Shown here: one piece after another, positions 1 to 29,208 of the stretch
Layout of the letters: each line of letters begins with the position of its first letter
Position numbering within the stretch: the stretch's first letter is position 1
Origin: Burkholderiaceae bacterium
GTDB lineage: Bacteria > Pseudomonadota > Gammaproteobacteria > Burkholderiales > Burkholderiaceae_C
NCBI GenBank assembly: GCA_016790575.1
Contig: JAEUOU010000028.1
Location: forward strand, 1-64,000
Direction of reading: 5' to 3'
Length of the DNA: 64,000 nucleotides
Program-made: the position numbers and the translations under genes
Notes under the pieces: generated by a model
Database searches by the model: none
Seen by the model: only the letters and a program-made list of their open reading frames with translations
Told to the model about the DNA's origin: nothing

Positions 1-184
<184 letters not shown>

Positions 185-6534: not shown

Positions 6535-6582
6535 GGGTTGGAAAAAATCGGAGGGCACCCCTGTTGGGGCATGACGGGCTCA

Positions 6583-6640
6583 CTATAAGCAAAAGCTTAA
6601 GTAAGTTATATTCAAGTTTTATTCTGTTTATATTCAGCTA
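6583..6640. promoter_or_regulatory. Divergent cbbY/cbbR control region with direct repeats
   Basis: The gap between cbbY and cbbR is strikingly A+T-rich. It contains two copies of TTATATTCA at 6606-6614 and 6628-6636, spaced 22 bp, about two helical turns. Elements of LysR-type T-N11-A form can be read in it. LysR-type regulators normally bind such intergenic regions and activate the divergent operon, so this is the expected CbbR operator. The exact site is inference. Confidence 0.6.
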
Positions 6641-18742: not shown

Positions 18743-19207
18743 TCAGTGCCGCGCGGGAGTGTTCGTCCGCGCGGCTGCGTCGAAGCCCCCTTTGGCCTTC
18801 CATTCCTCCATTCCGCCCTGGAGGATGCGGACGTTCTCCCACCCGGCGACCCGTAGCGCAAAGCCCGCCTGCGCCGACAAGGATCCCGTGTTGCAGTAGA
18901 CCAGTACCGACCGGTTCTTCGGAATCTCGTTTCGCCGGGCCAGCACCTGACGCCAGTCCATGTTGATCGCGCCAGGAATATGCCCTTTGGCAAACTGGCC
19001 GGCATCACGGGCGTCGATCACGAAGATGCGCGGCCACTCGTCTCGCGGAATCTGCTCAGGAAAAATCACGCCCCCGCCGTAGTCCACAAACTCCAGATAG
19101 CCGGCCATCTCGTCAATGGCAATGGCCTTGCTGTCGGCCCGGGCCAAAGGTGCGCAGAACATGCTGACCGCCAGCACCGCCAGGGAGAGCCGAGTTGTCA
19201 AATGCAT
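18743..19207 (-). CDS. Periplasmic rhodanese-like protein
   Basis: A 154-residue protein with a Sec signal peptide (MHLTTRLSLAVLAVSMFCAPLARA) and one rhodanese domain. The active-site Cys105 lies in YCNTGSLS, and DARDAGQFAKGHIPGAINMDW is the CH2A motif. It is likely a sulfur carrier or sulfurtransferase in the periplasm. A textbook AGGAGG lies upstream of the ATG at 19207, deciding the start against an upstream candidate at 19246. TTATATT occurs twice just upstream (19231-19237 and 19247-19253). It stands alone between the hybrid kinase and parA. Confidence 0.86.
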   Translation of the reverse strand: MHLTTRLSLAVLAVSMFCAPLARADSKAIAIDEMAGYLEFVDYGGGVIFPEQIPRDEWPRIFVIDARDAGQFAKGHIPGAINMDWRQVLARRNEIPKNRSVLVYCNTGSLSAQAGFALRVAGWENVRILQGGMEEWKAKGGFDAAARTNTPARH

Positions 19208-19562
19208 GTTGCCTCCTGAAACACCGTTCTTTATATTGCCAGTCACTTATATTTTATCGTGGCCACCGAATCCTTGCTCGAACCGTTGCGGCTGGCGCCG
19301 CTGCGCAGGCGAAACCCGCTGACCGCTTCGGGCTTTCGGTCGTACCCCCGCTCCAAGGTCCCGGCCGCCCGCGCAGCAGCCAGCCAACGACACCGGGGCC
19401 TGCAGGCGAGACAGCCCGAAAGCCTGACAACACAGGCCAGCCCGCGTGCATCCACCGCCGAGGATTGGTGGGCCTTCCGCCTTGTACCCAGCGCGAAAAG
19501 GTCAATAATTGCTATCGAAAGATGACTTCCGCTGCCCCCAAGGGGCCCGCGATCGTTCGCCC
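19208..19562. other. Intergenic region (355 bp) with promoter repeats and one dispersed repeat
   Basis: It holds the promoter side of the rhodanese gene (two TTATATT boxes spaced 16 bp), a G+C-rich non-coding stretch, repeat copy B at 19485-19515 and the palindrome-like CCCCAAGGGG near 19536-19545. No convincing gene was found in any frame. Confidence 0.55.
19485..19515. repeat. Dispersed intergenic repeat, copy B
   Basis: The copy reads TACCCAGCGCGAAAAGGTC then AATAATTGCTAT. It lies 47 bp beyond the 3' end of parA. Read outward from parA, the GATAGC end comes first and CTGGGTA last. Confidence 0.72.
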
Positions 19563-20470: not shown

Positions 20471-21175
20471 TCAGGCGGCAAGCAGTTGTTCTGGCGCCAG
20501 AATGCGGTAGACCCTTCCCTGTTTGTCCAGCGGCTCGATCATCCCCTCCCGAACCAGGGCGCTGACCTCGCGGCTGACGGTTTCCAGCTTGAGGTCGAGC
20601 ATGGCCCCCATGTCTTCGCGGGCAAAGAGGGTGGCGATGCCAGCATCGGCCGGACTGCGCATCTTGAGCACAAAGTGTGAGACCCGCTGCCGGGCCGTGC
20701 CGAAATTCAGATCGGCCAACCAGTCATCGGCCTCCTTGAGTGCGCGGTGCCACTTCTCCATCAGGCGCTTGTGCAGGCGCGGCGACTGCGCCGCCAGAGT
20801 CTGTATCACCGCCAGCGGTATGCGGCAGACGCTGATATCGGTGAGCGCGACTGCGTCGCTGTCGTAGTGCGCGGTGGCCAGGGCTTCCAGCCCCGCCACA
20901 TCCCCGGGGCGCAACACCCGCACGATACGCTGGCGCCCATCGGGTGTCACCCGCACCAACTTGATCAGTCCGGTGCGCAAAGTGAACACCCCCAGCGCGT
21001 TCGAGGCTTCGGTGAACAGCGCGCTACCGGCGCGGAGTTCCAGATCGTCGATGGGCGCGTGGATGAGGCCGAAATCCTGCTCGTTCAGGTCGGCAAACAG
21101 CACCATGTCACGAATGCCGCAGTTGCGGCAGTCGGACGTACCTTTCCAGGCCGATTCGGTCTTGATGGGGATCAT
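20471..21175 (-). CDS. FNR/CRP-family regulator with an incomplete iron-sulfur cysteine set
   Basis: A 234-residue CRP/FNR protein: an N-terminal cysteine region, a cyclic-nucleotide-like beta-roll (about 35-125), a dimer helix and a winged HTH. The recognition helix LETVSREV keeps Glu198, Ser201 and Arg202, the pattern that reads TTGAT-N4-ATCAA in FNR. E. coli FNR uses four cysteines (20, 23, 29, 122). Here Cys16, Cys19 and Cys117 are present, but the position matching Cys29 is not cysteine. A standard 4Fe-4S cluster is therefore uncertain. A near-consensus box overlaps its own start, and another precedes the cytochrome c4 gene at 22076. Confidence 0.87.
   Translation of the reverse strand: MIPIKTESAWKGTSDCRNCGIRDMVLFADLNEQDFGLIHAPIDDLELRAGSALFTEASNALGVFTLRTGLIKLVRVTPDGRQRIVRVLRPGDVAGLEALATAHYDSDAVALTDISVCRIPLAVIQTLAAQSPRLHKRLMEKWHRALKEADDWLADLNFGTARQRVSHFVLKMRSPADAGIATLFAREDMGAMLDLKLETVSREVSALVREGMIEPLDKQGRVYRILAPEQLLAA
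21162..21175. promoter_or_regulatory. FNR-type box overlapping the start of the FNR-like gene
   Basis: TTGATGGGGATCAT matches TTGAT-N4-ATCAA at nine of ten positions. It includes the ATG of the FNR-like gene itself, so it also encodes Met-Ile-Pro-Ile and could be coincidental. If real it would support repression of its own gene. Confidence 0.35.
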
Positions 21176-21254
21176 GCAGCACTCCGGTAGGCGGCTGCCA
21201 TTGTGTCATGGTCCCGATACTGCGGCTTGCTGCGGCCGAGATCTGGGAGTAATA

Positions 21255-21293
21255 CTATTTCAATAGCAAAAAAGTACCGTTTTACGCTGGGTA
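21255..21293. repeat. Dispersed intergenic repeat, copy C
   Basis: An inverted copy: CTATTTCAATAG hairpin (21255-21266), then GCAAAAAAGTACCG and TTTTACGCTGGGTA. It lies between the FNR-like and thioredoxin-like genes. Unlike most copies it is oriented with its CTGGGTA end towards the nearest gene 3' end. Confidence 0.72.
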
Positions 21294-21325
21294 CAGTCGA
21301 AAAACATGCGAAAACAGGTGCGCCA

Positions 21326-21859
21326 TCAGGCCTTGAGCGTCCGGCGAGCCTGCTCAAGGCGCTGTTCAAGGTAAGCACCATAGAACTCGGCCAGGTAACC
21401 ACCGACAAGGCGCTCCGCCAGCTCAACACCGTCACGCCCGAGGAACAACACGGTCGGCGCGATTCGCACCTTCCAGCCTCGCGCCAGCTCCTCGTGTGAG
21501 GTGCGGCCCCCTTTGGCATCGGTACTGGCGACGGCACTGCGCATGTCCACCTGTACCACGGGCAGGCCAATCTCGCGTCGTAGCGGCGCCAGATAGCTGT
21601 CACGCACCACGTTGCAGAAGGGGCAGCCGCTCAAACTGACCATGACCACCAGGGGCGAGCCCCCATCTACCGCGCGACGGATTTCAGCCGCCAGATTTGC
21701 GGAAGCCGGCAAACGCGCAGACACCGGCTCCGCCGCCCTCGCAGGGGGAACACCCACGATCGGCACCACCGGACAAAGCGCGCCTGCCATCAGAAGGCGG
21801 CGGCGCAATGGGCTGCCCGGCAACGATGTCGGTTGGGGAGGAATCGGCGTTGAGGACAT
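21326..21859 (-). CDS. Exported thioredoxin-fold protein (CPFC), SoxW-like
   Basis: A 177-residue protein with an arginine-led export signal (SPLRRRLLMAGA, ending at PARAAE around residue 43; Tat or Sec). A thioredoxin-like domain has the redox pair Cys79-Cys82 in SGCPFC and the cis-proline segment RIAPTVLFLG. It probably reduces periplasmic disulfides or persulfides. Its place between an FNR-like regulator and sulfide-oxidation genes suggests a SoxW-type role, but no soxYZ genes are present. The start at 21859 precedes the signal; no strong ribosome site was seen. Confidence 0.8.
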   Translation of the reverse strand: MSSTPIPPQPTSLPGSPLRRRLLMAGALCPVVPIVGVPPARAAEPVSARLPASANLAAEIRRAVDGGSPLVVMVSLSGCPFCNVVRDSYLAPLRREIGLPVVQVDMRSAVASTDAKGGRTSHEELARGWKVRIAPTVLFLGRDGVELAERLVGGYLAEFYGAYLEQRLEQARRTLKA

Positions 21860-22012
21860 GGCGATGCGGCGCGGCGAACGTGACCTGACAGTCGGCCTTT
21901 ATATCAGTGAATGCGCAATTATCGGCGAACCCGTCCAGCGTGACAACTGGGCAGACCGCTCACGGACCTGAGTGAGCCATTCCCACCAGACCCGCTCATG
22001 CCGGGACGAACG

Positions 22013-22026: not shown

Positions 22027-22075
22027 TACATTCTTTCATAAGGATTCATAAAGTGCTGCCATGGAGACTATGAGC

Positions 22076-22732
22076 ATGGCACATCACCAAAACAGTAGAC
22101 CGCAACGACTCGCCCGATGGGTGGCACTGGGGGTTCTCGTGGCCGCGGCAGGCTTGGCCCATGCACAGGGCAACAACGTCGCGTCGGTGATCGCCCGAAA
22201 CCAGTGTGCGGTTTGCCATGGCGAACAGGGAGAGAGCACCAATGCGCAGTTTCCTCAGCTGGCCGGGCAGAACGCGCAGTACTTGCGCAAGCAGCTGGAG
22301 GATTTCCGCGCCGGCACGCGCAAATACGACGCGATGAATGCCATTGCCCGCGAGCTGACCGACGCGCAGATTCAGGCGCTTGGTGCGTACTACGAAGTCC
22401 AGAAACCGGCCCAGCATCCGTCGGACGACGCCTTGCTGGTCGGCGTGGGCCGTTACATCTACGAGCGGGGAAACATCTACACCAAAGTCCCCGCCTGCGT
22501 TTCCTGCCACAGCGCCAGTGGTCAGGGCAGCGCCCGATTGCCGCGACTCGCGGGACAGCATCCGCAGTATGTCGAGAACCAGTTGCGGCGCTTTCATGCG
22601 AAAGAGCGACGGAATGATTCCGGTGCCATGGCCTTCGTGACCGAAGGGCTCAGTGAGCTGGAACTGCGCGCAGTCGCAGCCTATGTCGGTGGCATGGGCG
22701 CTTCGGCAGCCAACCCGAGAGGCCGTCCATGA
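22076..22732 (+). CDS. Dihaem cytochrome c4-type protein
   Basis: A protein of about 218 residues with a signal peptide (…WVALGVLVAAAGLAHA) and two haem c sites, CAVCH (Cys44, Cys47) and CVSCH, in two homologous cytochrome c4 halves, each followed by LAGQ. It carries electrons in the periplasm towards a terminal oxidase. Three ATGs (22061, 22070, 22076) are possible. GGAG at 22063-22066 best serves 22076 or 22070, and the first would overlap the proposed transcription start. The stop overlaps the next start by four bases, so it is co-translated with a rhodanese. Confidence 0.86.
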   Translation: MAHHQNSRPQRLARWVALGVLVAAAGLAHAQGNNVASVIARNQCAVCHGEQGESTNAQFPQLAGQNAQYLRKQLEDFRAGTRKYDAMNAIARELTDAQIQALGAYYEVQKPAQHPSDDALLVGVGRYIYERGNIYTKVPACVSCHSASGQGSARLPRLAGQHPQYVENQLRRFHAKERRNDSGAMAFVTEGLSELELRAVAAYVGGMGASAANPRGRP

Positions 22733-23352
22733 AATTCCCCGCACTCCCCTTGCTGCGCAGACGTCCCCGTCTGACCATGTTGGCTACATTGCTCGTGTTG
22801 TCGGCCGTCCCAGCCGCCTGGGCAATCGAGGCCGACAAGGTGCCCGAAGCCAAAAAAACCCCTCTGGGACTGTATCTGACGGCCAAAGAGGCGGCGGCCA
22901 TGAAAGCCGAGGGTGGAGCGGCGGTGGCATTTGTCGACGTCCGCTCGCGCGCCGAAGCGACTTTCCTTGGCATGGCCACGGCGGCCGATGCGCTGATTCC
23001 GTACCAGGATTTCAGCGGTGACTCCGCCGGTTGGGATGAAAAGAACAGCACCTTCTCCATGGAGGGCAATCTGGATTTCGTCAAGCAGATGGAAGCGCTG
23101 TTGAAATCACGCCAATTGGGCAAGGACAGCCCGGTCATCGTGATGTGCCGCTCGGGCGCCCGTAGCGCGACCAGCGTGACGCTGTTGGCCAAGTACGGCT
23201 TCACGAAGGTGTACAACGTGGTGGACGGGTACGAAGGTGATGTTGCCCGCAGCGGTCCGCAGGCAGGTCAGCGGGTCGTCAACGGCTGGCGGGTCGAAGG
23301 CTTGCCGTGGTCCTACAAGCTCGATCCGAAGAAGGTCAAGCTCCTGGAATAA
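22729..23352 (+). CDS. Exported rhodanese-domain protein
   Basis: A 207-residue protein with a signal peptide (cleavage near WAIEA, residue 32) and a rhodanese domain carrying Cys140 in MCRSGARS, with VDVRSRAEATF as the substrate-side motif. It probably handles sulfane sulfur or thiosulfate in the periplasm. The ATGA overlap with the cytochrome c4 gene implies coupled translation and a shared task, such as passing electrons from sulfur chemistry. A second, different rhodanese lies at 18743. Confidence 0.88.
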   Translation: MKFPALPLLRRRPRLTMLATLLVLSAVPAAWAIEADKVPEAKKTPLGLYLTAKEAAAMKAEGGAAVAFVDVRSRAEATFLGMATAADALIPYQDFSGDSAGWDEKNSTFSMEGNLDFVKQMEALLKSRQLGKDSPVIVMCRSGARSATSVTLLAKYGFTKVYNVVDGYEGDVARSGPQAGQRVVNGWRVEGLPWSYKLDPKKVKLLE

Positions 23353-23419: not shown

Positions 23420-24052
23420 TTACTTGCCACTCAGATATTCGGCCACGGCAGCCATCTCCAGCGGCGTCATCTTGCTGGCAATGGAGTGCATCACCGCGTT
23501 GTCGTTGGTCCGCTCGCGCTGGTTGAACAGCTTGAGCTGGCTTTCGGTGTAAGACGCAAACTGTCCGGCCAGCATGGGCAGACTGGCCGTGCCCTTGCCA
23601 TCGGGACCATGGCAGCTTGCGCAGGCTGCGACGCCGCTGAACTTGTTACCACTGTGGTAGATGTAGCGACCCACTGCGGCGAGTGACGGGTCCTTGGGTG
23701 GTTCCGCCTGATGGGACTTTTTCTCGAAATACTTGCCCAACGCGATCATTTCGTCGGGAGTCAGTTTGGCCACCATGTCTGCCATGGCAGTGCTCTTGCG
23801 CTTGCCACTCTTGAAGTTTTCCAACTGCTTGGCCGTGTATTCGGCATGCTGGCCAGCCAGACGCGGAAAGACCTCGCTGGCCGATTCCCCCTCAGCACCG
23901 TGACAGACGAAGCAGACGCCAGAGACAATTTTCTTGGCCCGTGCCTCGTCGGCCTGGGCGAACACGGCGCTGGCGGCGAAAGCCGTCAAACCCGCAAGAA
24001 TGCAGCGGGCCAGAAATTGGGGGGGAGTCAATGCCAACACGGTAGGGGCCAT
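23420..24052 (-). CDS. Dihaem cytochrome c4-type protein (fcc operon)
   Basis: A 210-residue exported cytochrome with two haem motifs, CFVCH and CASCH, each in a c4-type half with LAGQ and a following methionine-rich segment. The ATG at 24052 gives a normal signal peptide (…LAGLTAFAASAVFAQA); a TTG at 24079 is possible but less likely. It follows fccB by 71 bp on the same strand and is a plausible electron acceptor for flavocytochrome c. It is only moderately similar to the c4 gene at 22076, which faces it convergently. Confidence 0.87.
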   Translation of the reverse strand: MAPTVLALTPPQFLARCILAGLTAFAASAVFAQADEARAKKIVSGVCFVCHGAEGESASEVFPRLAGQHAEYTAKQLENFKSGKRKSTAMADMVAKLTPDEMIALGKYFEKKSHQAEPPKDPSLAAVGRYIYHSGNKFSGVAACASCHGPDGKGTASLPMLAGQFASYTESQLKLFNQRERTNDNAVMHSIASKMTPLEMAAVAEYLSGK

Positions 24053-24123
24053 CCAAAATAGAGTCAACGGGACGAACAAAAAAATGGCCGCCGGCTTGTG
24101 ACCGACGGCAATTTATCGGCGCA

Positions 24124-25407
24124 TCAGGCGAGGACGTCGGCCCAGATGTTGCGCGCCCAAGCCATCGCGTAGCGGCCTTCCAGCTCGCTGGCGGCACTGG
24201 AGACACCACCCGAACCTGGCACGGTCAACATGGTTTTCTGGGCCGCGTCATACCGGTGCACGCTGGCGACGTGAACCACATCTTCTTCGGTGACGAAGCT
24301 GTAGCAGGTGTTGTTGTAGATGGGCAGCTGGGCCGGCTGTTTGCCCGTGAGCAGCGCCACCACGGCAGCCGCGCAGGTCTTGCCGTGCTGGTTGGCCATG
24401 TGGCCCGACTTGGGCATGGCCGGCGCGATCTGCAGGGCATCACCCAGCACATGTACGTTCTTGACAGCCTTGGATTCGAACGTAAGCCAGTCCACTTCGC
24501 ACCACCGCTTGTTGGCGGTAGCCAGGCCGGTCTTGACAGCGATATCACCGGCACGCATGGCAGGAACAACGTTGGCCACGGCTGGCTTGAAGTCATCGTT
24601 GAACTCGAACTTCAGGGTGTTGGTGGCAGCATCGACATCGGTCACCGCGTGCTTCGGGCGGTATTCGATCATGCCGTCGTAGTGCTCTTTCCAGGCCTTG
24701 AGGAACAGCCCCTTCTTGGACTGGATGTCTTCGTTCGCATCAAAAATGATGACCTTGCTGCGTGGCTTGGCCTTCTTGAAGTAGCTGGCCACCATGCAGG
24801 CACGCTCGTACGGCCCCGGGGGGCACCGATAGGGTGCCAGGGGAATGGTCAACGCATAGACACCCCCGTTGGGCATGGCTTCGAGCTGTTTGCGCAGTGC
24901 AACCGTTTGCGGGCCGGCTTTCCAGGCATGAAGCACCCTGTCCTGCGCACCCGCCTTGGACATTCCGGGCAAGGTCTCCCACATGAAGTCGATGCCAGGC
25001 GACACAATCAGCCTGTCGTAGCCCAATTCCTGGCCAGAGGCGAGCTTGACCACGCGCTTGTCAGGGTCGATGGCTGCAGCCATGTCGCGCACCAGTTGCA
25101 CACCGTGGCGCTTGACCAGATTGTCGTAAGGCGTGGTGACGTCGGCCATGGTCTTGTGACCACCCAGCACCAGGTTGGAGATCGGGCAGGAGACGAAGCT
25201 GGCGTTGGGCTCCACCAAAGTGACATTGACCGTGCCCTCGGACCACATACGGATGTATTTGGCAGCTGTGGCGCCACCGTAACCACCGCCGATGATCACC
25301 ACACGGGGGCCGCCACTGCCACCGGTTGTGGCACATCCGGCAATCAGGGTCGAGGCACCCAGAACTGAACCGGCACCCAGAGTCTGAACAAACTGACGAC
25401 GTTTCAT
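24124..25407 (-). CDS. fccB: Flavocytochrome c sulfide dehydrogenase, flavoprotein subunit
   Basis: A 427-residue FAD protein with a twin-arginine signal (MKRRQFVQTLGAGSVLGAS). A possible lipobox (LIAGC, Cys25) precedes the dinucleotide motif VVIIGGGYGGATAA (37-50). Family comparison suggests covalent FAD at Cys74 (FVSCPISN) and a redox-active pair at Cys195 (YRCPPGPYE) and Cys368 (NNTCYSFV). The enzyme oxidises sulfide to sulfur or polysulfide in the periplasm. It lies 15 bp after the monohaem gene, its usual partner. soxF is an alternative name, but no other sox genes are present. Confidence 0.92.
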   Translation of the reverse strand: MKRRQFVQTLGAGSVLGASTLIAGCATTGGSGGPRVVIIGGGYGGATAAKYIRMWSEGTVNVTLVEPNASFVSCPISNLVLGGHKTMADVTTPYDNLVKRHGVQLVRDMAAAIDPDKRVVKLASGQELGYDRLIVSPGIDFMWETLPGMSKAGAQDRVLHAWKAGPQTVALRKQLEAMPNGGVYALTIPLAPYRCPPGPYERACMVASYFKKAKPRSKVIIFDANEDIQSKKGLFLKAWKEHYDGMIEYRPKHAVTDVDAATNTLKFEFNDDFKPAVANVVPAMRAGDIAVKTGLATANKRWCEVDWLTFESKAVKNVHVLGDALQIAPAMPKSGHMANQHGKTCAAAVVALLTGKQPAQLPIYNNTCYSFVTEEDVVHVASVHRYDAAQKTMLTVPGSGGVSSAASELEGRYAMAWARNIWADVLA

Positions 25408-25422
25408 GGTAGTTCCTCCGGT

Positions 25423-25734
25423 TTACTTCTTCAGTGCCGCGAAATAGGCGGAAATCTGCTGGATTTGCTCGTCGCTGTAGCCTTTGGCCAGCTGGTGCAT
25501 GACCGTCGCTGGCTTGCGGCCATTCTTGAAATCAAGCATCTTTTTGGCCAGGTCTTCCTGTTTCTGACCCGCCAGCGATTCCATGCCCGGCTGCGCCACG
25601 CCATTGGTACCGTGGCAGTTGGCGCAAGCGGCGGCCCAGTTACGCACCTGCAAGGCATCAGCCGCCTGGGCCGACGCATATGGCGCTGCAACCGTGAGCG
25701 CTGCAAGTACCAGTCCATGTCTCCAGCTTTTCAT
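25423..25734 (-). CDS. fccA: Monohaem cytochrome c, likely FccA subunit
   Basis: A 103-residue exported cytochrome with a signal peptide (…LVLAALTVAAPYASAQA), one haem motif CANCHG and the following GMESLAGQ and KNGRKPATVMHQ with a ligand methionine. It precedes fccB directly, so it should be its cytochrome subunit. It is monohaem, like green sulfur bacterial forms, not dihaem as in Allochromatium. The ATG at 25734 has AGGAGA upstream; an in-frame start at 25770 was rejected. Confidence 0.85.
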   Translation of the reverse strand: MKSWRHGLVLAALTVAAPYASAQAADALQVRNWAAACANCHGTNGVAQPGMESLAGQKQEDLAKKMLDFKNGRKPATVMHQLAKGYSDEQIQQISAYFAALKK

Positions 25735-25797
25735 TGCATCTCCTATGTCAAAAGAACGATTCCAGTCCACAACCCGACCGCATCCAGCTTAATATGC

Positions 25798-25815
25798 CTG
25801 AATGGTTATATTCAG
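25798..25815. promoter_or_regulatory. Palindrome upstream of fccAB, candidate ArsR-family operator
   Basis: CTGAATGGTTATATTCAG has perfect 6-bp arms (CTGAAT/ATTCAG) in an A+T-rich spacer between arsR and fccA, about 65-80 bp before fccA. It contains TTATATTCA, the same 9-mer found twice in the cbb operon control region. Confidence 0.55.
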
Positions 25816-25877
25816 ATTGACAATACTATCAGAGGCTTTCCCGCCTTGAAACCGGGGAAACCCCCAGCTACCGGGGT

Positions 25878-26237
25878 TCAGCGCGACGTGACGTCGTTTT
25901 CAATGGCAATCTGCGTGCACACCGCTCGGCACAGTGTCACCACCCGATCATTGATGATTCGATAGTAGATTTGCACGCCTTCACGACGCTTACCAAGCAC
26001 TCCCGCCTGATACAGGGTGTTGAGATGCTGTGACATGTTGGGTTGGGTGGTGTTGATCTCGCTGAGCAACTCACCGACGTTCTTTTCACCGTTGCACAGG
26101 CTGCTGATGATTTTCAGCCGCATGGGCGCCGACATGACACGAAACACCTCGGCCGCGAGCTCGAAAACCTCATCGGTCTCGGCCAATGAGTCGTCGGAAG
26201 CGGAGCGCGCGGGTGGCGGCGAAATGGTTTTTCCCAT
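25878..26237 (-). CDS. ArsR-family repressor, candidate persulfide sensor (SqrR/BigR-like)
   Basis: A 119-residue winged-helix repressor with the ArsR HTH (INTTQPNMSQHLNTLYQAG, about 61-79). It lacks the metal motif ELCVCDL of ArsR/SmtB. Instead Cys48 sits early in the domain (IISSLCNGEKNVGEL) and Cys103 and Cys107 in the last helix. In SqrR and BigR a pair in these two places forms a polysulfide bridge and releases DNA. Its position just upstream of fccAB on the same strand supports control of sulfide oxidation. Sensing is inference from the cysteines and context. Confidence 0.82.
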   Translation of the reverse strand: MGKTISPPPARSASDDSLAETDEVFELAAEVFRVMSAPMRLKIISSLCNGEKNVGELLSEINTTQPNMSQHLNTLYQAGVLGKRREGVQIYYRIINDRVVTLCRAVCTQIAIENDVTSR

Positions 26238-26280
26238 GAGGTTCCCCTGCCTGGACGGTCGACCGCCCGGCGAGCGTTCA

Positions 26281-26297
26281 ATTCGATAGTTGCGAAT
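26281..26297. promoter_or_regulatory. Small inverted repeat before arsR
   Basis: ATTCG-ATAGTTG-CGAAT lies 44-60 bp before the arsR start, where autoregulation by the repressor would be expected. The arms are short, so this is tentative. Confidence 0.35.
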
Positions 26298-26343
26298 ATA
26301 CGCTTGTTATGGCCCCGAAATCCGGAAAGCGGCCACCGCCGAT

Positions 26344-27960
26344 TCAGTGCGTTGCGCTGCGCAGGGTGCGACTGAGCAAAATGACCGGGATCAGGCCAAC
26401 CAGTACCAGCGCCAGCGAAGGCAGGGCCGCCTCGCCCAGCCGCTCATCGCGCGCGAGCTGGAACGCCACGACCGCCAAGGTATCGGAATTGAACGGGCGC
26501 AGCACCATGGTCGCGGGCAGTTCCTTCATCACGTCGACAAAAACCAGCAGCGCCGCCGCAACGAGGGAGCGGCGCAGCAGCGGCACATGGACCCGTCCGA
26601 GCACCGCCGCGGCGCCCGAGCCAAGCATGCGGGCCGAGTCATCCAGACTGACCGGGATGCGGGCGTAGCCACTTTGTACCGACTGCAGGGCCACCGCACA
26701 AAAGCGCACGAGATAGGCCCAGACCAGACCCAGGGATGTCGCCGTGAGAAGCAAGCCGACGCCGGACTGGGGCGCCACCTGCTGCAGCCAGCCAACCGGC
26801 AGCAAAAGTCCCACCACAATGACAGCGCCGGGCACCGCATAACCCAGGCCCGCCAACCCGACGACCGCCCGCGTGAGTCGGTCGGGGCTGCGGCGCTGGC
26901 CAAACGCCAGCACCAGCGCCACGGCAACCGCCAGAACGGCGGTCAGCGCCGCCAGACGCACGCTGTTGAACGACCAGTCGACAAACCGATCCCAGGGCAA
27001 CACCGACCAGTCGGCGGCCAGCGGGCGAACCATGAAGGCGACCGGCAGCACAAAACCGAACAGGATGGGCAGTGCGCACAGGACCCAGGCCACCGGCCAG
27101 CCGCGCCTGGACAGACGGACGGGCTGCGCATCAGCGGTGCCGCCGCGCCCGCCCCGACCGGTTGCAAACCGCATCTTCCGCTGCGCCCGTTGTTCCAGAT
27201 GCAGCAAGATCACCACCACCACCAGCAGCCCCGTGGCCAACTGCGAGGCCGCGACGCGGTTGTCCATCGACAACCACGCCTTGTAGATGCCCGTCGTGAA
27301 GGTCTGGATGCCGAAATAGCTGGAGACGCCGTAGTCGGCCAGGGTCTCCATCAACGCGAGCGCCACCCCTGCCGCAAGGGCAGGCCGGGACATAGGCAAC
27401 GCGACCTCCCGGATACGCCGCGACAGCGGAGCACCCAACAGCCGCGCGGCTTCCATCAGCTGCGCGGCGCGTTCGCTCAGGGCGGTTCGGGTGAGCAGAT
27501 AGACATACGGATACAGCGACACGGTGAAGACCCATGCAGCGCCACCGATGCTGCGAATTTCGGGCAGCAGGCGGCCCTCCCAGCCGAATTGCGCACGCAA
27601 GCCCGTCTGCAGCGGGCCGCTGAACTGCAAAAAGTCGGTGTACGCATAGGCGACCACATAGGCCGGCATGGCCAGCGGCAACAGCAGCGCCCATTCGAAA
27701 AAGCGCCGACCCGGGAAGTCGAACAGACTGACCGCTGCAGCCGTGGCCGCGCCCATCAGCGCCACGCCCAGGCCAACCCACAGCGAAAGCTGAACCGTGG
27801 TCCAGACATAGTCGGGCAGAACGGTAGCGGCCATACCTCGCAGGATGGCAAGTGTCTCGCCGTCCCATTGCAGCCAGGACAGCAACAAGGCCACCGCCGG
27901 CAGACACAGGAATGCCGCGATCAGCAGGAACAGGGCAGCGTGAAGCCGGCGCAGCGGCAT
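26344..27960 (-). CDS. fbpB: Iron(III)-type ABC transporter permease (FbpB family)
   Basis: A 538-residue inner-membrane permease made of two homologous halves of about six helices each. Each half carries an EAA-type loop (…EAARLLGAPLSRRIREVALPMSRPAL and …DDSARMLGSGAAAVLGRVHVPLLRRS). The SFN and KELPATMVLRPF segments are typical of ferric iron permeases. The ATG at 27960 (MPLRRLHAALFLL) opens on the first helix; a longer frame crosses the promoter. It is divergent from its ATPase gene with only 54 bp between. No periplasmic binding protein gene is nearby. Confidence 0.88.
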   Translation of the reverse strand: MPLRRLHAALFLLIAAFLCLPAVALLLSWLQWDGETLAILRGMAATVLPDYVWTTVQLSLWVGLGVALMGAATAAAVSLFDFPGRRFFEWALLLPLAMPAYVVAYAYTDFLQFSGPLQTGLRAQFGWEGRLLPEIRSIGGAAWVFTVSLYPYVYLLTRTALSERAAQLMEAARLLGAPLSRRIREVALPMSRPALAAGVALALMETLADYGVSSYFGIQTFTTGIYKAWLSMDNRVAASQLATGLLVVVVILLHLEQRAQRKMRFATGRGGRGGTADAQPVRLSRRGWPVAWVLCALPILFGFVLPVAFMVRPLAADWSVLPWDRFVDWSFNSVRLAALTAVLAVAVALVLAFGQRRSPDRLTRAVVGLAGLGYAVPGAVIVVGLLLPVGWLQQVAPQSGVGLLLTATSLGLVWAYLVRFCAVALQSVQSGYARIPVSLDDSARMLGSGAAAVLGRVHVPLLRRSLVAAALLVFVDVMKELPATMVLRPFNSDTLAVVAFQLARDERLGEAALPSLALVLVGLIPVILLSRTLRSATH

Positions 27961-27983
27961 GGGGAGGACCGGGGGATTGAATG

Positions 27984-27999
27984 AATGAGAATTGTAAGC
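27984..27999. promoter_or_regulatory. Possible Fur box between fbpB and fbpC
   Basis: AATGAGAATTGTAAGC resembles a Fur half-region (AATGAGAAT core) in the short divergent promoter of an iron transporter. The match to the 19-bp consensus is partial, about 11 of 16 compared positions. Confidence 0.4.
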
Positions 28000-28014
28000 A
28001 TCTACAATCGAGTC

Positions 28015-29208
28015 ATGTTTCTGCAGGTCTCCCAACTCGATGTGGTCTACCGCGGCCGGTCGCAACCGGCGGTGCAGCAGGTTTCGTTGGGCTTGCGCGC
28101 CGGGGATATCGGCGTGTTGATCGGGCCCTCGGGCTGCGGCAAGACAACCCTGCTGCGTGCCGTTGCCGGATTGGAGTCCGTCTCCGGTGGCGAAATCCGC
28201 CTTGACGGCCAGGTAGTCAGCCGGGTGGGTCAGGTGCTACCACCGGAGAACCGGCGCATTGGCATGGTGTTTCAGGACTACGCCTTGTTTCCCCATCTGG
28301 ATGTGGGCCAGAACGTGGCCTTCGGTTTGAACGCCCTGGCACGTGAACAGCGGGCCGCGCGGGTGGACGAGGTGTTGTCCCTGGTCGGCCTGGACGGTTC
28401 GGCGCGGCGCTTTCCGCACGAACTCTCGGGCGGTCAGCAACAGCGCGTGGCGCTGGCTCGGGCCCTCGCACCGCGGCCACGCCTGTTATTGCTGGATGAG
28501 CCGTTTTCGAACCTGGACGTTGATCTGCGCGAACGCCTGGCGCACGAGGTGCGCGGCATCCTCAAGCAGGCTCAGGCCACTGCCTTGTTCGTCACGCACG
28601 ACCAGCTGGAAGCATTTGCCATCGGCGACACGATCGGCGTGATGCACCAAGGCACCCTGCAGCAATGGGACGACGCCTACACCCTCTACCACCGGCCCGC
28701 GACCCGGTTCGTGGCGGAATTCATCGGCCACGGCGTATTCATGCCGGCGACGATCCGGGAACGCGGCCACGACGTAGTCGTGCAGACTGCGCTGGGTGAC
28801 CTGACCGACATGGCCGAGTGTCCACTGCCTTGCGCCTTTTCCGAGGGCCAGTGCGACCTGCTGTTACGGGCAGACGACATCCTGCATGACGACGATGCAC
28901 CGGTAAAGGCGGAGATCCTTCGAAAGTCTTTTCGTGGTTCCGAGTTCCTGTACACCTTGCGGCTGGCCAGTGGCGAGACCGTTCTCGCCCATGTTCCCAG
29001 CCACCATGACCATCGGATCGGCGAGTGGATCGGCATCCGTGCACAGGTCGACCACGTGGTGACCTTCAACCGCGCCTGCCCCGCAGAACATGGTGACATG
29101 TGTGCGCTTCCCTGCACCGCGCCGTGCACCCGGGACTGCCATCATGCGCAATCCGCCCGCAGCGAACTGCCGCCCGGTGCCATTCCCATCGCGGCGGCAA
29201 CGAACTGA
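28015..29208 (+). CDS. fbpC: Iron(III)-type ABC transporter ATPase with a cysteine-rich tail
   Basis: A 397-residue ATPase. Walker A is GPSGCGKTT (37-45), the signature LSGGQQQR starts at residue 137, and Walker B LLLLDEP follows near 155-161. The C-terminal third is the TOBE-like regulatory part seen in FbpC/PotA proteins. It ends in an unusual tail with five cysteines, Cys355, 363, 367, 371 and 375, followed by His-His. The ATG at 28015 (MFLQVSQLDVVYRG) matches the family; the in-frame ATG at 27985 overlaps the Fur-like site. It is divergent from fbpB. Confidence 0.9.
   Translation: MFLQVSQLDVVYRGRSQPAVQQVSLGLRAGDIGVLIGPSGCGKTTLLRAVAGLESVSGGEIRLDGQVVSRVGQVLPPENRRIGMVFQDYALFPHLDVGQNVAFGLNALAREQRAARVDEVLSLVGLDGSARRFPHELSGGQQQRVALARALAPRPRLLLLDEPFSNLDVDLRERLAHEVRGILKQAQATALFVTHDQLEAFAIGDTIGVMHQGTLQQWDDAYTLYHRPATRFVAEFIGHGVFMPATIRERGHDVVVQTALGDLTDMAECPLPCAFSEGQCDLLLRADDILHDDDAPVKAEILRKSFRGSEFLYTLRLASGETVLAHVPSHHDHRIGEWIGIRAQVDHVVTFNRACPAEHGDMCALPCTAPCTRDCHHAQSARSELPPGAIPIAAATN

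Follow-up and report, generated by a model that had tools for sequence, protein, structure and literature searches.

An arsR-fccAB operon with a c4-like cytochrome gene

The window analysed here, a 64,000-nucleotide stretch of contig JAEUOU010000028.1 from a Burkholderiaceae bacterium, carries on its minus strand, in the order in which the reading frames are listed from position 26237 down to 23420, the genes arsR, fccA, fccB and a c4-like cytochrome gene, which an initial annotation had predicted to form a persulfide-controlled sulfide dehydrogenase operon. All four genes are present as claimed on the evidence of their reading frames, haem motifs and Pfam domains. Our main subjects are the regulator ArsR, which carries an unusual but highly conserved set of three cysteines, and a 22-bp dyad that recurs around arsR and at other sulfur genes in its relatives.

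The arsR gene (25878..26237, minus strand) encodes a winged-helix regulator of 119 amino acids that can be placed in the ArsR/SmtB superfamily, with a family hidden Markov model score above the cut-off (NCBIfam HTH_metalloreg, a metalloregulator subfamily model, 77.8 bits against a cut-off of 55; Pfam HTH_5 was also matched) and a predicted winged-helix fold. Downstream on the same strand, fccA (25423-25734) encodes the cytochrome subunit of a flavocytochrome c sulfide dehydrogenase, monohaem as annotated, with one CxxCH motif (CANCH). Its best structure match is a c4 chain (6q2u_A, 1.7e-17), and it also matches the cytochrome chain 5n1t_B at 9.1e-15; this monohaem protein resembles that 102-residue chain, in contrast to the 174-residue Allochromatium-type chain 1fcd_C, a comparison that relies on the haem counts we assume for 5n1t_B and 1fcd_C. 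The flavoprotein subunit gene fccB (24124-25407, minus strand) is identified both by Pfam domains (FCSD_central, 151.5 bits, cut-off 27; FCSD-flav_bind, 85.5 bits, cut-off 26) and by structure matches, aligning over nearly its full length with the sulfide dehydrogenases 5n1t_A (1.5e-105) and 1fcd_A (6.7e-104). The cysteines of its FVSCPISN, PYRCPPG and NTCYS segments line up with cysteines of 1fcd_A, which we take to be the flavin-linking cysteine and the redox-active pair. FccB has a twin-arginine-like signal as judged by eye, and a profile search of the whole genome gave a single FCSD-flav_bind match.

The last of the four genes (23420..24052 on the minus strand with an assumed start codon, within a reading frame of 23420-24079) encodes a dihaem cytochrome with two CxxCH motifs and two Cytochrom_C stretches, the composition expected of a c4, and none of the c4-specific models matched it in the profile search. 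It had been annotated as part of the operon and as a likely electron acceptor. The gene does follow fccB, but the gap between them holds a terminator-like hairpin of nine pairs followed by a T run (24087..24109, minus strand), and the fold of 24070-24125 reaches -23.4 kcal/mol (z -3.83); the scanned stretch holds 4 terminator-like sites, this one included, against a mean of 3.7 in shuffled sequence. With a hairpin in this position the c4-like gene may have lower transcript levels than fccAB or depend on another promoter, and its membership in the operon is thus uncertain since the hairpin may uncouple it. The encoded protein is the likely acceptor of electrons from FccAB.

A regulator with a displaced cysteine triad

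The only cysteines of ArsR are Cys48, Cys103 and Cys107. The usual metal motif is absent, as had been annotated: helix 3 has no CxC, the motif that passages of PMC10509353 describe for one type of ArsR/SmtB metal sensor. In the AlphaFold2 (AF2) model, which has a predicted local distance difference test score (pLDDT) of 88.1 and helices at 38-49 and 97-118, Cys48 lies at the end of helix 2 and Cys103 and Cys107 lie on the last helix, helix 5 of the family.

The initial annotation had gone further and described these cysteines as sitting where SqrR and BigR have their sensing cysteines, a claim that fails on alignment by both sequence and structure. Ungapped alignments match the cysteines of SqrR, BigR and HlyU to C40 and C106 of a BigR-type protein of this order, P0001, and C40 of P0001 corresponds to Ser45 of the window ArsR in an alignment that stops short of the second cysteine. 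A joint alignment supplies both positions: across 30 BigR-type proteins, position 45 is cysteine in all 30 and position 111 in 29, with one gap. Structure alignment agrees, pairing residues 22..113 of ArsR with 18..109 of SqrR (6o8l) and residues 16..113 with 13..110 of BigR (3pqj), both without gaps; C41 of SqrR and C42 of BigR then fall on position 45, a serine here, and C107 of SqrR and C108 of BigR on position 111, an alanine, where these numbers for the two SqrR and BigR cysteines are those we presume to be correct. Cys48 and Cys107 were therefore rejected as the equivalent of the SqrR/BigR pair. Relative to those positions Cys48 is displaced by +3 on helix 38-49, and Cys107 and Cys103 by -4 and -8 on helix 97-118. 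By fold, ArsR is nearest to SqrR, Mycobacterium smegmatis SmtB, HlyU and BigR, tied at Z 14.6-14.9 (SqrR 14.9 and BigR 14.6, at ~30% identity); because these are ArsR proteins of several kinds, the fold search does not single out a sulfur sensor.

The triad is highly conserved. We compared the window ArsR with its 80 nearest relatives, the best 80 of at least 537 candidates, which form the near clade (L082-L161), and Cys48, Cys103 and Cys107 are kept in all 80, while position 45 is Ser (74) or Ala (6), position 111 is Ala (79) or Glu (1), and neither is ever cysteine. Among 29 order-wide matches, Cys48 is present in 25, Cys103 in 29 and Cys107 in 27, and position 45 is never cysteine. The same three positions hold cysteine in 43, 43 and 41, respectively, of 43 proteins used for tree construction (17 order-wide, including the window protein, and 26 of the 80 nearest). 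In the tree, which was built from few alignment columns and which covers this order and not the alphaproteobacterial SoxR, these triad-type proteins separate from 30 BigR-type proteins of the order with support of 100/100.

Distribution of the clade and linkage to sulfur genes

The closest named relatives among the matches listed come from Ramlibacter, Hylemonella, Rhodoferax, Limnohabitans and other Comamonadaceae, which makes a Comamonadaceae-like origin of the window within the Burkholderiales probable. Across a sample of 398 genomes from the phylum, ArsR matches above 140 bits occur in nine, all from the same order, and the next match scores 98.5 bits. Proteins of the BigR type are found in the order as well, with a match at E<=1e-18 in 44 of 150 genomes, and a BigR-type query on the present genome returned just its two arsR genes, weakly. 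Against the NCBIfam BigR model the window ArsR scores 64.4 bits, under the cut-off of 155.

Linkage to sulfur oxidation genes is a recurrent property of these regulators. Codirectional fccAB genes lie within 1.5 kb of arsR in at least 35 of the 80 nearest relatives, and sox genes are in view of arsR in at least 30; both counts are lower bounds because many contigs are short, and since the loci are related by descent they are not independent events. The second arsR of this genome is of the same kind and stands on another contig (C24), one with a soxB match as well, directly before soxC, as called by a SoxC model over its cut-off. Beyond the near relatives, triad ArsR proteins at 30-36% identity sit beside soxC-like genes at five loci, called by a SoxC model over cut-off in L052 and by eye in L053, L054, L057 and L058, and at L074 and L075, from another family, arsR is divergent from fccAB, with a soxC-like gene following arsR in L074. 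No sox or fcc gene was recognised near arsR at L064 and L065. Two observations stand apart from these counts. In Ramlibacter terrae (L128, 5784-8769) soxC- and soxD-like reading frames occur in pieces. At L055 (1185-1535), an ArsR with C103 and C107 and Asn at position 48 lies between genes for a TauE sulfite-exporter family protein and an MBL-fold protein; the latter could be a persulfide dioxygenase, all models for it being below cut-off.

A 22-bp dyad at arsR and other sulfur genes

Downstream of arsR, 65 non-redundant regions (the window's and those of 64 relatives) were searched for palindromes, and the search yielded a dyad of 22 bp whose AT-rich arms, e.g. TATATTCG or TAAATAAG, surround six bases; it scored 260, as opposed to 56-60 in four dinucleotide-preserving shuffles. 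The first motif was trained with the window included, and the counts given here come from motifs retrained without it. The first retraining dropped ten loci at which the site overlaps the ribosome-binding site (RBS), six such loci remaining, and a strict set (n=48) drops all sixteen. Exact-dyad counts and motifs from upstream regions were abandoned because those regions contain conserved coding sequence.

Scanning the loci of the 80 relatives for sites of at least 14 bits away from arsR gave 86, of which 56 are at the starts of sulfur genes (soxC, soxW, soxY, dsrE, fccA, soxA and soxD), sixteen of the relatives' sites being at SoxW-like genes alone. Because sulfur genes abound at these loci, permuted motifs are the proper yardstick: 40 column-permuted palindromic motifs gave means of 5.05 sites in all and 2.0 at sulfur genes, with maxima of 31 and 14. 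With the strict motif there are 77 sites, 44 of them at sulfur genes, and permuted means of 4.2 and 1.15 (maxima 14 and 10). The weak site before the paralogous arsR (L069, 2274) scores 10.1 bits with the first motif and 1.2 with the strict one.

A further comparison used the region upstream of fccA at 29 order-wide loci outside the training set. Scores of 19.9-20.3 were reached at three of these (G049, G218 and G111), and none of the other 26 exceeds 14.1; the same three genomes hold the best ArsR matches of the 29 (E 4e-22 or better). In G049 the arsR gene is elsewhere in the genome, so adjacency alone fails to explain the dyad match. Triad status of the ArsR was checked at six of the 29 loci, namely these three and G288, G163 and G198.

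Within the window, seven positions reach 10.5 bits or more, against 0 to 2 in each of 20 shuffles, and four candidate operators adjoin sulfur-related genes. Candidate operator 1 (26279..26300; minus strand, TATATTCGCAACTATCGAATTG) is upstream of arsR and scores 10.6-11.2, and candidate operator 2 (25791..25812; minus strand, AATATAACCATTCAGGCATATT) is in the gap between arsR and fccA and scores 7.5-10.7; in three versions of the motif trained without the window they rank 6th, 7th and 6th and 9th, 6th and 7th, respectively, among ~64,000 positions. The annotated palindrome of the arsR-fccA gap does exist, as CTGAAT-N6-ATTCAG at 25798-25815, but it overlaps candidate operator 2, and with it the conserved dyad, about a different centre. 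Candidate operator 3 (21900..21921; score 11.8-15.1, rank 3-5) lies between a thioredoxin-like gene and a c4-rhodanese gene pair, and candidate operator 4 (19232..19253; score 17.1-19.2, rank 1-2) upstream of a rhodanese-like gene. The motif trained without the window and the ten RBS-overlap loci ranks the sites at 19232, 21900, 25791 and 26279 as 1st, 3rd, 6th and 7th, and the motif without all sixteen such loci ranks them as 1, 5, 7 and 6. Three further sites of at least 10.5 bits are at 6582 (before a LysR gene), 28720 (inside the frame of an ABC ATPase) and 29371 (in the gap after the ATPase). Some of the sulfur genes beside the window's sites received their labels once the sites had been seen. 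The first of the three further dyads (6582-6603, score 14.1-18.9) is flanked by a HAD-hydrolase gene and a LysR gene whose product resembles CbbR (303.7 bits, cut-off 450); it could be a site for the LysR protein or could tie sulfur control to carbon fixation.

Neighbourhood of the operon

The view that the window holds no sulfur context beyond the operon was considered and rejected. Adjoining the operon on the plus strand are a second dihaem c4-like cytochrome gene (22061..22732; profile search) and a gene for a rhodanese-like protein that is probably exported, as judged by eye (22729..23352; Pfam Rhodanese, 2e-9), and on the minus strand are genes for a SoxW-like thioredoxin (21326..21859; Pfam Thioredoxin_2, 29.2 bits, cut-off 27, the SoxW label being assigned in this analysis), a CRP/FNR-type regulator (20471..21175; FnrL the best model at 77 bits against a cut-off of 300) and another probably exported rhodanese-like protein (18743..19207 with an assumed start, the listed frame extending to 19246; Pfam Rhodanese, 2.2e-20). 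The annotated absence of other sox genes from the window fits the soxB matches of this genome, which fall outside it on contigs C24 and C32; for other sox genes that absence was checked within the stretches with listed reading frames alone. The pair formed by the SoxW-like gene and the FNR-type regulator gene after it (20471-21859) is syntenic with arsR-fccAB at L094, L102, L110 and L112, mostly from Limnohabitans.

The gene upstream of arsR, also on the minus strand, encodes an ABC permease, and past it comes a divergent gene for an ABC ATPase. The substrate models for these genes all score below cut-off, aminoethylphosphonate being the best (though far below) and molybdate and ferric iron also matching. 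By eye, the end of the permease gene (26344-28065) appears to be conserved upstream of arsR at L085, L096, L124 and L139.

Just past the arsR stop codon is a GGGTTTnnMC box (25854..25863, minus strand), of which there are 8 copies on both strands over the whole window. Of the 35 fcc-linked relatives, 29 have such a box no more than 70 nt from the arsR stop, as do 1 of the 27 linked to sox and 4 of the 18 others; shuffles gave it 3 times in 1620. An activator of the fcc promoter may bind there.

A regulatory model and its alternatives

Control of the sulfide dehydrogenase genes by ArsR, as first predicted, is supported at the level of sequence by the conserved linkage and by the dyad shared among fcc, sox, soxW and dsrE genes. 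We think it probable that ArsR is an autoregulated repressor of an fcc/sox regulon that includes the sulfide-oxidation operon, and that sulfane sulfur releases it through a relocated cysteine site. In the absence of reduced sulfur, an ArsR dimer would occupy the 22-bp dyads that precede arsR and other sulfur genes, as well as the one in the arsR-fccA gap. FccAB would oxidise periplasmic sulfide and pass the electrons to c-type cytochromes, probably including the neighbouring c4. Sulfane sulfur in the cytoplasm would then persulfidate Cys48 on helix 2, or bridge it with Cys103 and/or Cys107 on helix 5, and this modification would release ArsR from the DNA. Should helices 2 and 5 pack antiparallel, the shifts of +3 and -4 would keep the thiols facing one another, one turn away from the SqrR pair. 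We infer sulfane sulfur as the inducer from the gene context and from the characterised ArsR sensors of sox and shdr genes, two of which are reported in portions of PMC10451225 and PMC12423496 to respond to it; by this analogy a sulfur signal for ArsR is plausible.

Several results weigh against this model. Some concern the protein: the SqrR/BigR cysteine positions are not occupied by cysteine, and Cys107 is replaced by Ser in the fcc-linked L074 and L075, so that a 48/107 bridge cannot be general and Cys103 is the better-supported partner of Cys48. Others concern the dyad. The two dyads of the window's fcc operon are weak and score below the rhodanese site. At G288, G163 and G198, the ArsR of which has the triad at 30-33% identity, the fccA upstream region scores at most 2.9. 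Motif discovery leaned on loci with an RBS-overlapping site, and the best site overlaps the Shine-Dalgarno sequence or start codon in 23 of 35 fcc-linked relatives; 7 of the 12 without Shine-Dalgarno overlap hold a site of at least 12 bits. The dyad search used unequal numbers of starts, 150 for the real data and 60 for the shuffles. In an unseeded search of the strict set (40 starts), another palindrome came first at 160.5, with the seeded dyad at 135.9 and three shuffles at 73.5-82.8; that palindrome probably stems from coding sequence. Finally, a model built on sequence alone from 34 sites (67 rows once reverse complements were added) found nothing genome-wide at E<=10, and in the window it matched just three places (E 0.58 to 6), all of them away from arsR and fccA.

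Three other explanations of ArsR and the dyad deserve consideration. ArsR could be a sensor of metals or metalloids that uses Cys48, Cys103 and Cys107 as a three-thiolate site, with control of sulfur genes reflecting metal or arsenic stress. Three conserved thiols on two helices could coordinate a soft metal, the metalloregulator subfamily model of NCBIfam is matched over its cut-off, and the fold search also matched AntR, an antimony sensor (Z 14.0). Transport genes are neighbours too, in the ABC permease and ATPase genes upstream of arsR and at L061 (1447-1857), where a triad ArsR adjoins an RND efflux adaptor gene called over cut-off, a CzcB-type metal-efflux model matching below cut-off. 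However, the recurrent context is one of sox, fcc, dsrE and soxW genes, the C48-lacking relative at L055 is flanked by TauE sulfite-exporter family and MBL-fold genes, and the helix-3 CxC described in the part of PMC10509353 noted above is missing, and we consider a metal sensor unlikely.

The same conserved thiols might instead form a general redox switch: peroxide or oxygen would drive a disulfide, and sulfur oxidation in the periplasm would be tuned to the redox state. The ArsR protein RexT senses peroxide and has vicinal cysteines, according to sections of PMC8960804, and SoxR of Hyphomicrobium denitrificans, too, is described in part of PMC10451225 as losing DNA binding on oxidation. The RexT cysteines are adjacent on helix 3, though, unlike those of ArsR here, and the dyad sites cluster at sulfur genes; we judge a general switch improbable. 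The dyad, for its part, might belong to another regulator, with ArsR merely encoded beside it. A motif by itself names no protein, the GGGTTT box and the linked FNR-type regulator suggest additional inputs, and there are genomes with a divergent triad ArsR that have no dyad at fccA. Yet the dyad surrounds arsR in relatives, and among the 29 fcc loci it is strong at just three, those of the genomes whose ArsR matches are the best. We regard this possibility, too, as unlikely.

A broader proposal runs along the same lines, and we see about even chances for it: the Burkholderiales hold a second class of ArsR sensor for reactive sulfur, with a 48/103/107 triad one helical turn from the SqrR pair and a regulon of fccAB, soxC, soxY, soxW, dsrE and rhodanese genes read through one conserved 22-bp operator. 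Characterised sulfane-sulfur sensors of the ArsR family in the reviewed literature are recognised by one cysteine pair, a filter that would miss this sox- and fcc-linked clade, and a search of the open-access literature found no study of the triad-ArsR clade or of an ArsR-fccAB operon. The recurrent dyad offers direct, testable targets, and setting the shifted cysteine site against that of SqrR would show how far persulfide specificity depends on exact position. Two paralogous regulators in one genome, one at fcc and one at sox genes, provide a natural comparison.

Comparison with known systems

The enzyme of the operon shares both FCSD Pfam domains and the conserved cysteines with the FccAB / SoxEF flavocytochrome c sulfide dehydrogenases. 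The regulator resembles SqrR of Rhodobacter capsulatus and BigR of Xylella and Acinetobacter in its fold, in its sulfide-related putative targets and in an AT-rich inverted-repeat site; a passage of PMC9774250 gives the SqrR site as ATTC-N8-GAAT, to which the dyad is similar although its arms are variable. It differs from both in having Ser45 and Ala111 in place of their sensing cysteines, in carrying its three cysteines elsewhere and in forming a clade separate from the 30 BigR-type proteins of the same order. SoxR and sHdrR of Hyphomicrobium denitrificans are likewise ArsR repressors whose genes accompany sox or shdr genes, but unlike the present clade they carry, in the accounts taken from PMC10451225 and PMC12423496, the SqrR-type cysteine pair C50 and C116. 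The soxR gene of Thiomonas sp. 3As heads soxCDYZAXB in a soxRCDYZAXB cluster (PMC2829063, in part), a likeness of gene order to a regulator named by annotation. The ArsR described here may work like SqrR, BigR and SoxR, but it fails the cysteine test that defines them, and we therefore keep it apart from them.

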